Virus record (IMG/VR): IMGVR_UViG_3300021964_000018
Location: 62,001-126,000 of that record
DNA: 64,000 bases
Strand: one strand, 5' to 3'
DNA from: a virus
Below, in pieces: positions 42,443 to 60,707 of the stretch. The notes under the pieces are model-generated. The model worked only from the letters and a program-made list of their open reading frames with translations, searched no databases and was not told where the DNA came from. Position 1 is the first letter of the stretch, and each line of letters opens with the position of its first letter. Position numbers and translations under genes: made by a program.

Positions 42443-44062
42443 ATGGAAATCAAAAGAGAAGTAATTTTTAAAGATAGTTTTGAAAGTAAAATAAAAAAAG
42501 GAATTGACACACTTTCAAATGCAGTTAAAACAACAATGGGGCCTAAAGGAAAATTAGTTCTTATTCAGAGAGAAGGACAACACCCAATCGTAACAAAAGA
42601 TGGCGTAACAGTTGCTAATTCTATCAATCTAGTGGATGAAGTAGAAAATTTAGGCGTTAAAGTTTTAAAAGAAGCAGCATCTAGAACTGCTGATGAAGCG
42701 GGTGACGGAACAACTACCTCAACTGTTTTAGCACAAGCCATTTTTAACGAAGGCTTAAAAATGAAGTCTGCAGGATTTCAAATTGATTTAATTAAAAGAG
42801 GTATTGATTCTTCACTTAAATTAATTAAAGATTATTTACTTGAAGCAAAAAAAGATGTAACGAGTAATGAAGAATTAAAGCAAGTTGCAATGATATCTGC
42901 AAACGGTGAAGAAGAAATTGCTAATCTTATTGTCGACGCAATTCAGGCAGCTGGACCTGATGGGTCAGTCATTGTTGAAGAAGCAAAAGGATTTAAATCA
43001 GAGCTTAATGTTGTTGATGGTTTTCGATTAGAGCGCGGATATTTGTCGCCTTATTTTGTAACAGATAAAAATAAAATGACATGTGAATTTGAACGCCCTT
43101 TAATCCTAATTGCCGACAGAGAATTCAATACAATACACGACCTTATGAAACCATTGGAAACGGCTTTGGATTCATCCAGGCCTATTCTGATCATCGGAAA
43201 TGATATCCAAGGTGATGCTCTTCAAGGAATGGTATTAAATAAAGTAAAAGGATCGTTGCGGGTTTGTGCAATTAAGTCTCCGGGTTTTGGCGGGTCTAGA
43301 CATGATATGTTGGTAGATTTGCAGTCAGTTATAGGAGGTGAAGTAATTACATCTTCGTTTAATATGAGCGAATTTAAAATGGAGCATTTTGGAACGTGTG
43401 AAAAATGTATTATTCATAAAAACATGACAATGATTATTTCAAAAGACACGAAGCAAAAAAATAAAAAGATTGAGGAACGAATCGATTCAATTCGAAGCCG
43501 CCTGCTAGAAAGATATTCATTGCAAGATGGTGAAGAAAACATTTTAAAGTATCGTTTACAACAATTGTCGGGAGGTATTGCAATATTACGAGTTGGAGCT
43601 GCTACAGAATCTGAATTGATTGAGAGGTATGATCGTGTTGATGACGCATTGCATGCAACGAGGGCAGCTTTGCAAGAAGGAATCTTACCAGGTGGAGGAG
43701 TTGCATTAGCAAGAAGTTCAAAAAAGCTTAAGGAATTATCGACAACAATTGATAATCCTGATATAAAAGCTGGAGTTGAAATAATGTTAAGAGCTGTTAC
43801 GTCGCCTTTTAAGCAAATCATAAAAAATGGCAATAAGTCAGATCAAACGTTATTAGATGCTGTGATTGAAAAAGATAATAATACAGGTTATGATTCTAGA
43901 AATAATAAGTTTGGTGATATGTATTCTTTGGGAATTGTGGATCCACATAAAGTTGTTAGATGTGCAATTGAAAATGCAACGTCTGCAGCAACAATGTTGT
44001 TGAGTGTTGAATGTTGTCTTATAAGTTTGAAACAAGAAAATTCAGAAGATAATTATAATTAA
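42443..44062 (+). CDS. groEL: GroEL-type group I chaperonin (60 kDa)
   Basis: 539 aa, the normal GroEL length. TTMGPKGKLV and TKDGVTVANSINL are the N-terminal signature, AGDGTTTSTVLAQAI the ATP-binding motif with the DGTTT loop, and LPGGGVALARSSKKL the nucleotide-contact loop. It should fold proteins in an ATP-driven cage. The C-terminus ends in QENSEDNYN without the Gly-Gly-Met tail, and no groES is adjacent. A few other large phages carry chaperonins, usually thought to fold capsid or enzyme proteins. Expression is probably coupled to the FEN gene cluster. Confidence 0.95.
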   Translation: MEIKREVIFKDSFESKIKKGIDTLSNAVKTTMGPKGKLVLIQREGQHPIVTKDGVTVANSINLVDEVENLGVKVLKEAASRTADEAGDGTTTSTVLAQAIFNEGLKMKSAGFQIDLIKRGIDSSLKLIKDYLLEAKKDVTSNEELKQVAMISANGEEEIANLIVDAIQAAGPDGSVIVEEAKGFKSELNVVDGFRLERGYLSPYFVTDKNKMTCEFERPLILIADREFNTIHDLMKPLETALDSSRPILIIGNDIQGDALQGMVLNKVKGSLRVCAIKSPGFGGSRHDMLVDLQSVIGGEVITSSFNMSEFKMEHFGTCEKCIIHKNMTMIISKDTKQKNKKIEERIDSIRSRLLERYSLQDGEENILKYRLQQLSGGIAILRVGAATESELIERYDRVDDALHATRAALQEGILPGGGVALARSSKKLKELSTTIDNPDIKAGVEIMLRAVTSPFKQIIKNGNKSDQTLLDAVIEKDNNTGYDSRNNKFGDMYSLGIVDPHKVVRCAIENATSAATMLLSVECCLISLKQENSEDNYN

Positions 44063-44086
44063 ACATTATATTGTCGGAGATGCAAC

Positions 44087-44470
44087 ATGAGCAATAAAAA
44101 AGTTATATTAAAAGAATTAGATAAAATAGAGATGATTGCTGAATCTTTATATAAAATGGATAGAAAATTATCTTCAACTACATTAACTTTAAAATTAGAA
44201 AGAGATACTCATGTTCCAGATTTAATGACACGTATTAGAATATTACCGGGTGTAGCTGTAGTTGCACAAAAAGATAAGGTTGCTAGATTTTTTGATGGTG
44301 ATGCACAGTTAATGATAAATATTAAATTTTTGCCAAAATCTAATGCAATTTTAAAATCAATTAAACATTTAGCGAAAATGATTCGCAATTTACCAGGAGT
44401 TAAGTCGATAGCAGTTGAAACGTATGATAAAAGAAAAATATCAATGCACGGAAAAAAATTAATTTTATAA
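44087..44470 (+). CDS. Unknown phage protein
   Basis: 127 aa. KVARFFDGDAQLMINIKFLPKS and LRIRILPGVAVV-like strands (LMTRIRILPGVAV) followed by a helix and a second PGVKSIAVE strand suggest a small alpha/beta fold with an ACT-like repeat. No certain family. Confidence 0.5.
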   Translation: MSNKKVILKELDKIEMIAESLYKMDRKLSSTTLTLKLERDTHVPDLMTRIRILPGVAVVAQKDKVARFFDGDAQLMINIKFLPKSNAILKSIKHLAKMIRNLPGVKSIAVETYDKRKISMHGKKLIL

Positions 44471-44775: not shown

Positions 44776-45522
44776 TTGAGTTATAATACAGCAATTAATA
44801 ATTATTTTAAAAGTATAAGAAACATTCCTTTACTTACAAAACAACAAGAAATAGAGCTCGCAAAAAAGATTGAGCAAGGAGACATAAAAGCAAAAAAGAA
44901 AATGGTTGAATCAAACTTAAGGCTAGCAATATCAGTTGCTAAAAAATATGCCAAATACGGATCTAGTTTAGAAGATTTAATTCAAGAATCCAATATTGGT
45001 TTAATTAAGGCAGTTGAAAAGTTTGATTGGCGGAAAGGTTATAAATTTTCAACATATGCAACTTGGTGGATTAAACAAGCAGCAACACGTCATTTAACAG
45101 CAAATAATACTTTATTAAAAGTTCCATCTCATACAATTGCAAATGCAAGTAAAGTTTGGAAACTGATTCAGTCTTATCAAGAAGAATTTAATACAGAGCC
45201 TACAATTGAAGAAATTTCCGAGATTCTTAACATACCAGAAAAACACGTTAAGCAGGCAATTGAATCTTTAAAAACGCGTCATTTAAAATCAATCGACAAA
45301 CCTGTTAGTGATGAAAACAACAGGACTTTAGGAGATATTCTTCCAGATAATGCACCAAGCATTGAAACATTAATGGATCAAGAAATTATCAGACAACAAA
45401 TAGTTACTGCATTTAAATCTTTATCTAAACGAGAAGAAATTGTTTTAAGATTAAGATTTGGAATAACTGATATTGATACTAATAATAATGAAATACATGA
45501 AATTAATAACGAGGAGGAATAA
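44776..45522 (+). CDS. Sigma-70-family factor truncated in region 4
   Basis: 248 aa with TTG start six bases after AAAGGAG. Region 1.2/2: [28 protein letters not shown] and [39 protein letters not shown] (-10 recognition). Region 3 follows ([20 protein letters not shown]). Region 4.1 begins [16 protein letters not shown], and then the protein ends in Glu/Asn text where the -35 binding helix-turn-helix should be. It can still bind -10-type promoters and redirect host RNA polymerase. TATAAT at 44743 sits upstream of this gene. The next gene may supply the missing part. Confidence 0.9.
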
Positions 45523-55284: not shown

Positions 55285-55652
55285 GGGCCCGCAAAGGTTT
55301 CGACGGGGTAGGAGTAAGTGTTGTGGTGCATGTAGGTAAGAATCAGCCTTAATTGTTCAAAAATTTTATAAATGCCAATAATAATAAGCATTTCGCTCTT
55401 GCAGCTTAACAGCCTTTAGCGACGTCTGAATAGAATATGTATGGGTATCTATTTGGGCGTGTAAGACCATACTAATCCTGAGAGTCGTTTTAATGGTGGC
55501 GGCTTAGGGGATAATAAAGGAACCAGGTAAAATCCATTACGTGTTATTCTAGGGTTCTCTCTTCCAATTTAATACGTATAATTGAGAGTAAACATGTAGG
55601 ACCACTATTTATTTTATGCCGGACGGGGGTTCGACTCCCCCCGGGTCCACCA
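55285..55652 (+). ncRNA. ssrA: tmRNA (SsrA)
   Basis: 368 nt. The 5' arm GGGCCCG pairs with CGGGTCC before the encoded CCA, including a G-T at the third pair, the alanine-identity G3-U70. The D-like loop holds GGTTTCGACGGGG and the T arm GGGGGTTCGACTCCCCC. An internal reading frame at 55374-55409 starts GCC and ends TAA, giving the tag A-N-N-N-K-H-F-A-L-A-A. The LAA end is the normal degradation signal. It rescues stalled ribosomes by adding this tag. The phage carries its own copy, with its own promoter and an encoded CCA end. Confidence 0.95.
55374..55409 (+). other. tmRNA proteolysis-tag reading frame
   Basis: Encodes ANNNKHFALAA then TAA. Ala as resume codon and the LAA terminus match the family. 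The tag's middle (NNNKHF) is not the familiar E. coli ANDENYALAA and can serve as a host marker. Confidence 0.9.
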
Positions 55653-55756: not shown

Positions 55757-56191
55757 ATGACAAGGTTTGCATTAACTCACGTACCCGCATTGTTAGGAAA
55801 CGGTGCAATTGACAGGCTTTTTGAGGAATTTTTTCAAAACCCGGAGCCCTATGTCAAACAAACAACAAACGGATATCCACTAACAGATATCTACAAAGAA
55901 GAAGACGGCAGTCAAGTGATCGAAATGGCACTGGCTGGATTTTCTAAAGAAGACATCCTTATTAATACTGAGGCGAATAAAATTACTATCAGCGCTGACG
56001 GTTCTAAATTAAAGGGTCAACTAGCAGAAAATCGACGTCGAATTGCAAAGCGAGCATTTAAGAAATCATTTGTTGACTACCACAATACACTTGATTTTGG
56101 AAACTCAAATGCAACATTTGAAAACGGTTTGTTAAGAATTCAAATTCCTTTGCGGGATGAAGTTAAACCACGTCAAATTACTATTAAGTAA
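55757..56191 (+). CDS. Small heat-shock protein (Hsp20/alpha-crystallin)
   Basis: 144 aa, preceded by AAGGAGG. PLTDIYKEEDGSQVIEMALAGFSKEDI is the start of the alpha-crystallin domain, and NATFENGLLRIQIPL the conserved end (A-x-x-x-N-G-[LV]-L-x-[IV]-x-[IV]-P). It binds unfolded proteins without ATP. With GroEL and the J-like protein it gives the phage three chaperone classes. Its own promoter lies upstream. Confidence 0.9.
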   Translation: MTRFALTHVPALLGNGAIDRLFEEFFQNPEPYVKQTTNGYPLTDIYKEEDGSQVIEMALAGFSKEDILINTEANKITISADGSKLKGQLAENRRRIAKRAFKKSFVDYHNTLDFGNSNATFENGLLRIQIPLRDEVKPRQITIK

Positions 56192-58485: not shown

Positions 58486-58526
58486 AACCTCTGTTTGTAG
58501 CAAATAGTTATAAGCAGAGGTATTTT
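58486..58526 (+). promoter_or_regulatory. AAATA-loop hairpin B, upstream of the histidine kinase gene
   Basis: ACCTCTGTTT pairs with AAGCAGAGGT (10 bp, one T-G at another position than in A), inside G-TAGC-AAATA-GTTA-T, then ATTTTT and ATG. AGAGG in the right arm is the likely ribosome site. Differences from A keep pairing. Confidence 0.7.
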
Positions 58527-58527
58527 T

Positions 58528-59562
58528 ATGCAAGCAAGAAAAGGTGAATGGTTTTCTTTATCATGGGATATTATAGGTACTCATGATGAAAAAGCATATA
58601 GTCATTTTTATAATGCTCCTAAATTTTTGTATGCAGAAGAAGACAGCAAACAAATTGAAGCTGAAGTCATTAATGAATTTTATCGATTACGGCTGGCCAG
58701 AATATTTATCACATCAGTTTTCGTAACTGATACAGAAGGAAATAAAGTCCCTACACATTATCGAATTGGTGAATTTATGCCAGGAGATAATAAATCTTAT
58801 GACAAATGGTTGGCAAGGTACCATAAGATTAATTTTGAAGTTACGGAATATGTTCGTGCTAAAGAAGCACTAAATCAAAAAAATGTATATCTTGAACATT
58901 CGGCTAAAATTATTCGTCATGATATGCATAGCGGAATTAATACTTACATTCCACGAGGATTTAAAAGTTTAATTCGTAGATTACCAGAAAACATAATTAA
59001 AGAAAACCGTTTAGAAACTGCGCTTAAGCTATTAAAAGAAGGTATTGATCACGCCCAGAGAGTTTATAGTGGAGTTTATGCATTCACAAACTTGGTAAAA
59101 GAAGATAGCGTTTTAGAACAAGAAATATGCGATTTGAGAGAAGTAATTAAAGATTATCTCAGAGGAACAGCATATTCAGACCAAGTTATTGTTGAAGAAT
59201 TAATTGAATTAGAGGTTAATAGTTCTTTATTTTGCACAGCAATCGACAACTTAATAAGAAACGGTTTAAAATATAATGACAGTCCAACCAAATTTGTTCG
59301 TATATATATGGAAGATGAAGAAACAATCTGTGTCCAAGATAATGGTAGGGGATTGTCCCGAAGAGACTTTTTATATTTTTGCAAACCTTATGTAAGAAAA
59401 AGAGGTCAAGCTGAGTCTGGCTCAGGTTTAGGGCTTAACATCGCAGCTGCTATATTTACAGAGCACGGTTTTTCAATTGACCCAGAAAAGTTAGAAAATG
59501 GCACAATTATGAGGATAAAATTAAATGCAGGTGATAAAAAGTATATTATTAGTGGACGATGA
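58528..59562 (+). CDS. Sensor histidine kinase, phage-encoded
   Basis: 344 aa. No membrane segment is seen, so it is cytosolic. Residues 1-120 may be an input domain, then a helix KEALNQKNVYLEHSAKIIRHDMHSG with the H box (candidate phosphate-accepting His near 131). The N box is AIDNLIRNGLKYND at about 238, G1 VQDNGRGLS near 270, and G2 GSGLGLNIAAAI near 298. These are all parts of a HATPase_c kinase. It is followed, with overlap, by a response-regulator gene. The leader has the AAATA-loop hairpin. The signal it senses is unknown. Confidence 0.85.
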   Translation: MQARKGEWFSLSWDIIGTHDEKAYSHFYNAPKFLYAEEDSKQIEAEVINEFYRLRLARIFITSVFVTDTEGNKVPTHYRIGEFMPGDNKSYDKWLARYHKINFEVTEYVRAKEALNQKNVYLEHSAKIIRHDMHSGINTYIPRGFKSLIRRLPENIIKENRLETALKLLKEGIDHAQRVYSGVYAFTNLVKEDSVLEQEICDLREVIKDYLRGTAYSDQVIVEELIELEVNSSLFCTAIDNLIRNGLKYNDSPTKFVRIYMEDEETICVQDNGRGLSRRDFLYFCKPYVRKRGQAESGSGLGLNIAAAIFTEHGFSIDPEKLENGTIMRIKLNAGDKKYIISGR

Positions 59563-59962
59563 AACTCTATTTCATCTTGTTTTTGATGACGCATGCAACA
59601 TCTTAGACATCTCTTTAAATCTTGAAACTGTATCTTCTTCAGACACAGCTGAAAATATGTTTAAAGGGTTTCAAACAAATCAAGATGATAAGCCTGAATG
59701 TGTTTTTGTTGACCTAAACATTATTGGGTCATCATTTGATGGGATAGAATTGGTTCGTAGAATTAATTATCAATACGGAAATGGTGTTGTAATAGGGATT
59801 ATTTCAAGTTCATCAGATCCTATTGAGATTGATAAGGCAAAAGGTGCAGGTGCGCAGTTTTGGATTGTAAAATCAGATGATATTGAGCCTCGCTTGGAAC
59901 AATTTAAAGCTGATTATCCTAATTATAAAAACAGGACAGGTGCTTTTAAGGTGTACAAATGA
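59525..59962 (+). CDS. Single-domain response regulator (receiver)
   Basis: 145 aa, overlapping the kinase by 38 bases (GAGG ten bases upstream). All key receiver residues are present: Asp11-Asp12, phospho-acceptor Asp63 (VFVDLN), Ser in GIISSSSD, and Lys116 (WIVKSDD). No DNA-binding or other output domain is fused. It would take phosphate from the kinase next door and pass it on or act by protein contact. Confidence 0.85.
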   Translation: MQVIKSILLVDDETLFHLVFDDACNILDISLNLETVSSSDTAENMFKGFQTNQDDKPECVFVDLNIIGSSFDGIELVRRINYQYGNGVVIGIISSSSDPIEIDKAKGAGAQFWIVKSDDIEPRLEQFKADYPNYKNRTGAFKVYK

Positions 59963-60522
59963 TTAAAATCTTAGATGAAGATAAAGCAGCTTTTATAAGG
60001 CTCGCTTTAGAAAATAAAATATATTTAGAAGGTCCTGTTTTAAAAATGATCGACACAGAGGATGATCAAGCATTTAAGATTTATCTTGCTGAAGCGATTG
60101 AAAATGATCAAAGTAATAGAAAAAAAAGATTAGCAATTACAAAGCAAATCCAGGCGCAAAATGCAGAGCTCCAGAAAAAAGCAGAAGAAAATGATAGTTT
60201 AATGGACGAGTTAAAAGATGCAGTGCAAAAAGCTGAAGACGCAAAAAAAGCTGCAATTAATGATTTAGATTTAGTTCAGAAGAAAACTCAGTTTGAATTA
60301 ATTGGTAATATTGTCAATGTTGCTTTATACACAATTATGGGCGTAGGTATTATTACAACTGGACTATACGCCGCGGCATTGTTTTGGGGGAATACTCAAG
60401 ATACAACGTTATTAGGAAATACCTGGAGTAATCTTTTTGGTATTTTGTTAACAAACTCTTTTAGTATTATTGGCACAATTATGGGTGTCAAATATGCCAG
60501 CGAAAAAGGTGAAGGAAAATGA
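59959..60522 (+). CDS. Coiled-coil membrane protein coupled to the two-component system
   Basis: 187 aa, ATGA overlap with the regulator. A coiled coil lies at about 45-105 (Gln/Glu/Lys-rich), then two hydrophobic segments (VNVALYTIMGVGIITTGLYA and LLTNSFSIIGTIMGVKYA) near 115-180. It may be the membrane partner of the two-component system or a separate virion/holin-like membrane protein. Confidence 0.5.
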   Translation: MIKILDEDKAAFIRLALENKIYLEGPVLKMIDTEDDQAFKIYLAEAIENDQSNRKKRLAITKQIQAQNAELQKKAEENDSLMDELKDAVQKAEDAKKAAINDLDLVQKKTQFELIGNIVNVALYTIMGVGIITTGLYAAALFWGNTQDTTLLGNTWSNLFGILLTNSFSIIGTIMGVKYASEKGEGK

Positions 60523-60707
60523 AAAAGCATTTAAAAGAAATTAACATGTCTTATTTTCAGCATATGAAATGCGCATTAGGCTATGCTAAAGAAAGTGGAA
60601 AAGCAATGATATATTTTTTTATTCACGCTTTCTTACCTGATATTTGGGTTGTAAAAGGCTCAAAAAAACTTAAAGAAATAAATAAGTCAATTGAGGATAG
60701 AAAATGA
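60519..60707 (+). CDS. Small membrane-associated protein
   Basis: 62 aa, coupled by ATGA. A hydrophobic stretch MIYFFIHAFLPDIWVV lies in the middle and the rest is basic. No family. Confidence 0.45.
   Translation: MKKHLKEINMSYFQHMKCALGYAKESGKAMIYFFIHAFLPDIWVVKGSKKLKEINKSIEDRK

Follow-up and report, generated by a model that had tools for sequence, protein, structure and literature searches.

Background

The cues that phages are known to detect include peptides, quorum signals and superinfection. The Clostridioides difficile phage phiCDHM1 carries an agr3 locus with an AgrC histidine kinase, for which no associated response regulator was found by the authors (PMC3901668). In lysis inhibition, phage sensing proceeds via antiholins, namely RI and RIII with the T holin in T4, and TeaA and ArrA in ICP1 (PMC7182436). 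No published report of a dedicated and complete phage two-component system was found in a literature search drawing mostly on sources outside subscription journals, phiCDHM1 being the nearest precedent. Here, I describe a trio of genes, encoding a histidine kinase, a single-domain response regulator and a third protein with a membrane hairpin, in the IMG/VR record IMGVR_UViG_3300021964_000018, a 141,038-base virus contig; the window, i.e. the whole stretch of 64,000 nucleotides that was analysed, corresponds to its bases 62001-126000. With a probability of roughly 0.55, the trio is regarded as a dedicated, non-transcriptional three-component circuit gating a membrane effector, the likeliest purpose being the timing of lysis.

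Histidine kinase and response regulator

The features of the pair are as follows (window coordinates; aa, amino acids; DHp, dimerization and histidine phosphotransfer).

58528..59562, + strand: histidine kinase, 344 aa (Pfam HATPase_c, structural model, Foldseek, invariant RHDMHSGINTYxPRG)
Kinase domains: aa 1 to about 104, soluble N-terminal domain; aa 105-188, DHp-like helical pair with H131; aa 236-333, HATPase_c
58918..58920, + strand: codon of H131, the presumed phospho-accepting histidine (sequence; invariant in 69/69)
59525..59962, + strand: single-domain response regulator, 145 aa (Pfam Response_reg; conserved C-terminal tail FKVYK in the alignment)
59711..59713, + strand: codon of D63, the presumed phospho-accepting aspartate (sequence; invariant in 64/64)

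The initial annotation, made from the letters alone, had claimed a complete phage-borne two-component pair, and this is supported. The coordinates, the 38-base overlap between the kinase and regulator genes and the ATGA junction to the third gene all proved exact, and the hidden Markov model (HMM) search suggested at the time as a check places both domains above their Pfam cut-offs: HATPase_c with E 3e-11 and 44.2 bits (cut-off 26.4), Response_reg with E 1.9e-8 and 34.9 bits (cut-off 30.2; both hmmscan). Likewise, Response_reg is matched by all 38 regulator relatives scanned. A Response_reg search across the phage's own record returned no match, although hmmscan of the reading frame does; this is attributed to the loose first look of that search.

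The kinase boxes and receiver residues singled out in that annotation hold up among relatives. In an alignment of 69 distinct kinases, the segment RHDMHSGIN, within which H131 lies, is identical in every row; N241, D271, G273, G275 and G300 do not vary either, N245 and G302 occur in 67/69, and the HATPase_c domain has its N, G1 and G2 boxes. Among 64 distinct regulators, D11, D12 and D63 never vary and K116 is found in 63, the remaining row being truncated; the protein is a receiver with its acidic pocket, phospho-aspartate and lysine, and nothing else. The AlphaFold2 model of the kinase shows H131 within a long pair of helices, as well as an ATP-binding domain; Foldseek aligns it best with the histidine kinase structures ZraS, HK853 and CpxA (E about 1e-10 to 1e-9, over some 240 columns). 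Judged from sequence comparison, the motifs are real and maintained by purifying selection, the ratio of non-synonymous to synonymous substitution rates (dN/dS) being 0.01-0.22 among close relatives, where dS is unsaturated.

The absence of membrane segments from the kinase, as first annotated, is true of the window protein and not of its family: N-terminal membrane helices are predicted in 138 of 161 related kinases, many of which also have PAS or GAF domains, and a soluble N-terminus like the one seen here marks a small sub-branch (10/161). In five relatives of the window (L002-L006) the kinase with the soluble N-terminus adjoins another kinase of the same family, so the carrier phage and a further relative, L001, probably kept just the soluble one of two.

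Linkage and distribution of the three genes

A first scan of IMG/VR with the window kinase as query yielded 125 relatives, from which 79 loci were kept, making 80 with the window. The regulator is present in all 79 (in L042 it was found by direct search, having been dropped by the simple gene caller). When the genes of the 80 loci were clustered, three families occurred in 80/80, namely the kinase, the regulator and the third protein, the next commonest neighbour being found in 44/80. Two kinases accompany one regulator in six loci, and in L002, L004-L006 and L008 unrelated genes lie between the regulator and the third gene, which is still retained nearby. The membrane coiled-coil protein annotated downstream of the pair was therefore correctly placed, yet it is no mere neighbour, the companion being as constant as the pair itself.

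A second scan, with the third protein as query, gave at least 570 confirmed relatives and brought 73 new viral loci, some on contigs already seen. The trio is complete in 67 of them. Of the other six, five stop at a contig end beyond which the missing genes would be expected; the one real exception, L160, has an endolysin-like gene (L160:36-2020), the regulator and the third gene in a row, with no adjoining kinase. The linkage between the three genes is near-obligate.

Outside uncultivated viruses the family is scarcely seen. No member of any component was found by tblastn in 50,697 records of isolate phages, and kinase, regulator and third-protein queries from other clades gave the same result, so that an artefact of a divergent query was rejected. 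In 72,556 plasmids the third protein is unmatched and the kinase gives weak partial matches to generic kinases only; a plasmid-borne origin was likewise rejected. Prokaryote genomes hold three loci (L086, L087 and L088) in 84,980.

The third protein and its cellular relatives

The third gene and its parts are the following.

59959..60522, + strand: third component, 187 aa, built of a CheR_N-like N-terminal part, then a coiled coil, then a membrane hairpin of two helices; the regulator is proposed to act through it
59959..60228, + strand: N-terminal 90 residues, which recur in the chromosomal L086 kinase; proposed to read the regulator
60298..60498, + strand: membrane hairpin, about aa 114-180 (hydropathy; invariant WxNxxGILLTNxFSIxGTIMGxK)

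An N-terminal domain of about 55 residues is followed by the coiled coil and by two membrane helices, the second segment being invariant; by hydropathy, the hydrophobic segments begin at aa 114 and 159. In the AlphaFold2 model (mean predicted local distance difference test 84) a continuous helix, 37-142, runs into the membrane, with a second membrane helix at 146-184. As in two-helix holins, the protein is small and has a membrane hairpin, albeit holins do not usually have so large a cytoplasmic coiled coil. The N-terminus resembles the all-alpha CheR_N domain, on weak HMM matches to CheR proteins and an hhalign value of 90.7% against a three-sequence CheR_N alignment. The likeness is N-terminal only and Pfam finds no methyltransferase domain, hence the protein is not regarded as a CheR methyltransferase. 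No named family for it exists in Pfam, PHROGs or NCBIfam, and profile searches of the PDB as well as Foldseek searches returned no significant match. Membership in an anti-phage defence system was also considered and rejected: PADLOC is silent for the kinase and the regulator, and for the third protein its one match is weak and confined to the coiled coil.

A case in point for the role of the N-terminal domain is L086, a contig of a Bacteroidota metagenome-assembled genome (MAG) with chromosomal-looking neighbours, where a PAS-rich kinase of the family, the regulator and a third gene are found together. The first 90 residues of this third gene are the domain of the viral third protein (E 8.6e-30 for the N-terminal HMM in that genome), and HisKA and HATPase_c follow. 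The cellular and viral forms differ only downstream of the shared domain; most simply, the latter would serve as input by reading the regulator, with the remainder as the output; by the same token, the viruses would have exchanged a kinase output for a membrane hairpin.

The second cellular locus, L087, lies on a 967-kb Bacteroidota contig and has an intact regulator and a PAS-rich kinase split over several frames (L087:5562-9157), which may reflect decay of this copy or faulty assembly of the PAS repeats. The third genome locus, L088, has the membrane-hairpin form and is viral-looking. Surrounded by viral sequences, the kinase/regulator pairs of L086 and L087 fall into a single clade (0.975) in a midpoint-rooted tree that leaves the direction of transfer between cells and viruses uncertain. 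A wider cellular spread of the N-terminal domain was not seen (396, 295 and 247 genomes, groups of two Bacteroidota MAGs), the matches being L086 and weak ones, three of which are CheR_N.

Neighbouring lysis genes

Gene neighbourhoods were counted over 115 loci with distinct third proteins, a gene being near when within four genes of the trio. Two of the recurrent families are an endolysin with PG_binding_1 and GH19 domains (cluster 4) and a PF05105 holin (cluster 6), and one or the other is near in 52/115 loci. The GH19 endolysin is found 39 times near and 6 times farther away (Fisher 3e-8), the PF05105 holin 30 times near and never farther (Fisher 1e-10), and within-locus permutation reached such proximity in 0/2000 trials. 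The proximity persists in 20 of the 52 clusters left after reduction at 70% identity. Gene orders and strands differ between clades.

In 37 of the 115 loci (e.g. L047:3571-3771), the gene immediately before the kinase encodes a membrane protein of 62-66 residues, weakly similar to the YgaP membrane domain; it may be an accessory part.

The carrier phage

The carrier is a T4-like phage: its record encodes a T4-type portal (E 3.6e-72) and a large terminase, and inspection by eye picked out tail-sheath, capsid and UvsX-like genes. The nearest isolate terminases are those of the Microcystis phage Mel-JY01 (about 42% identity) and of the Flavobacterium phages 'immuto' (about 41%). On account of the terminase relatives and of the Bacteroidota MAG contigs that hold the family, Bacteroidota are likely hosts of the wider trio family.

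Directly ahead of the kinase gene lies a further feature.

58487..58521, + strand: terminator-like RNA hairpin, a 15-bp stem then AUUUUU, with its end 6 bases short of the kinase start codon

It folds at -21.3 kcal/mol (z -4.5) and its sequence occurs once in the window; L001, the sole relative tested, has no comparable perfect stem. The hairpin may end upstream transcription and cover the ribosome-binding site of the kinase. At the other end, the 3' end of the third gene is overlapped by a gene for a DUF6356 protein of 62 residues (60519-60707, E 1.9e-11), of which the gene clustering of the other loci contains no relatives. Elsewhere in the window there are a complete transfer-messenger RNA gene (55285-55652, tag ANNNKHFALAA), neighboured by an Hsp20-like gene (55757-56191), and, by eye, GroEL-like, GroES-like and sigma-factor-like genes (42443-44470 and 44776-45522). 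Many unrelated window proteins share the N-terminal motif MKLTRKxLRKLI... (starts 56270, 60704, 62163, 62639, 63534 and many more), possibly a common targeting or cleavage signal.

Proposed mechanism

Gene identity, intact catalytic residues, purifying selection, the linkage of the trio, the domain swap and the association with lysis genes are established from sequence. In the circuit proposed here, the kinase, membrane-located in most relatives and soluble with its own N-terminal domain in the window, would sense the state of the infected cell and autophosphorylate at H131, from where the phosphate would move to D63 of the regulator. Docking of the regulator on the CheR_N-like domain of the third protein might follow, with the coiled coil relaying the induced change as far as the membrane hairpin. 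Such a circuit would probably act at the membrane instead of through transcription; likeliest, the third protein would act as a holin, as an antiholin or as a controller of a neighbouring holin, and so set the timing of host lysis.

A broader claim, to which I would give somewhat less than even odds, is that uncultivated phages widely use the trio as a phosphorelay specific to viruses, the kinase and the stand-alone receiver deciding the time of lysis through their action on a dedicated membrane protein. If this is true, many aquatic viruses read the state of the host by phosphorylation. Hundreds of phage contigs from the environment have the trio, none of the phage records searched does, and it is a testable candidate for how the timing of lysis is tuned.

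Alternative explanations

Several observations weigh against lysis timing by such a circuit. The link to lysis is a statistical association by neighbourhood only; in 63 of the 115 loci neither an endolysin nor a PF05105 holin was recognised near the trio, and the window is one of them, the only peptidoglycan-binding gene noticed there (656-1555, by eye) being about 57 kb away. The third protein matches none of the holin or antiholin families of Pfam, PHROGs or NCBIfam, and homology of its hairpin to a neighbouring family of small membrane proteins (cluster 5) was considered and rejected, profile comparison finding the two unrelated. The predicted template modelling score of the third protein is low (0.38), as expected for a rod folded as a monomer. 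For the kinase, no HisKA-type Pfam domain scored in the viral proteins, and the DHp assignment is presumed from motif and model. The domain-swap argument draws on a single clear cellular operon, that of L086, while in the genome of L087 the domain of the third protein was not detected anywhere, leaving a kinase and a regulator without a third gene.

The same circuit might serve another end at the membrane, such as superinfection exclusion, control of membrane potential or transport, or remodelling of the envelope during infection. The linkage of the trio and its domain architecture fit this equally well, as do the loci devoid of nearby lysis genes; ribonucleotide reductase genes also recur as neighbours, and a PF05105 holin already adjoins the trio in many loci, where a holin role for the third protein would not be required. 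This is the main rival, though less probable than lysis timing, for endolysins and holins lie near the trio strongly above within-locus expectation, and do so in several gene orders.

From a regulator devoid of an output domain, the initial annotation had concluded that a host phosphorelay (chemotaxis, motility or development) might be intercepted or rewired, in which case the regulator would be a phosphate sink or decoy. CheR is a chemotaxis protein, and the weakly CheR-like N-terminus of the third protein, together with Bacteroidota as likely hosts of the wider family, could be read along the same line. That conclusion is not borne out: the dedicated third gene, which resembles an output, accompanies the pair almost without exception, and L086 offers the domain swap. 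Moreover, the phospho-box helix RHDMHSGINTYxPRG and the first helix of the regulator, LFHLVFxD, both contact segments of the pair, do not change between viruses of great diversity; this would suit two proteins reserved for each other more than it would suit proteins adjusting to differing hosts. The family is also almost absent from cells. Interception of a host pathway is accordingly improbable, although, judged from sequence, some cross-talk with host proteins may occur. Least credible of all is a captured host signalling operon, kept as an accessory set with its original cellular function, i.e. host fitness during infection. A chromosomal Bacteroidota operon with the same kinase and regulator does exist in L086; nevertheless, the viral third gene consistently has a membrane hairpin in place of the kinase output, the two cellular pairs group together among viral ones (with the direction uncertain, as said), and cellular relatives are extremely rare.

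Comparison with known systems

A dedicated circuit gating a membrane effector, as favoured here, has points in common with several described systems. With two-component systems of the CheY/Spo0F type the trio shares an HATPase_c kinase and a receiver with a full acidic pocket and lysine and with no DNA-binding output; it differs in being encoded by viruses, in its dedicated membrane-hairpin protein, in the invariant C-terminal tail of the regulator, and in a phospho-box, RHDMHSGIN, that scores as no Pfam HisKA family. Like phiCDHM1, the carrier has a phage-borne histidine kinase, whereas the trio offers a complete pair and a third component conserved in many viruses; no AgrB-type Pfam match occurs among the proteins scanned around the kinase, and the locus does not qualify as agr-type quorum sensing.

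Lysis inhibition in T4 and ICP1 would be alike in that the phage senses conditions and thereby gates a membrane lysis effector non-transcriptionally, and in many loci the trio lies near a holin or endolysin. It differs in that antiholins are at work there, no kinase or phosphorelay being described, and no known holin or antiholin family was found to be related in sequence to the trio. Closest in composition is the L086 operon, with the same kinase family, regulator family and N-terminal domain of the third gene, where HisKA/HATPase_c replaces the coiled coil and hairpin; L086 and the viral form together represent a natural case of output-domain swapping, a kinase on one side and a membrane effector on the other.
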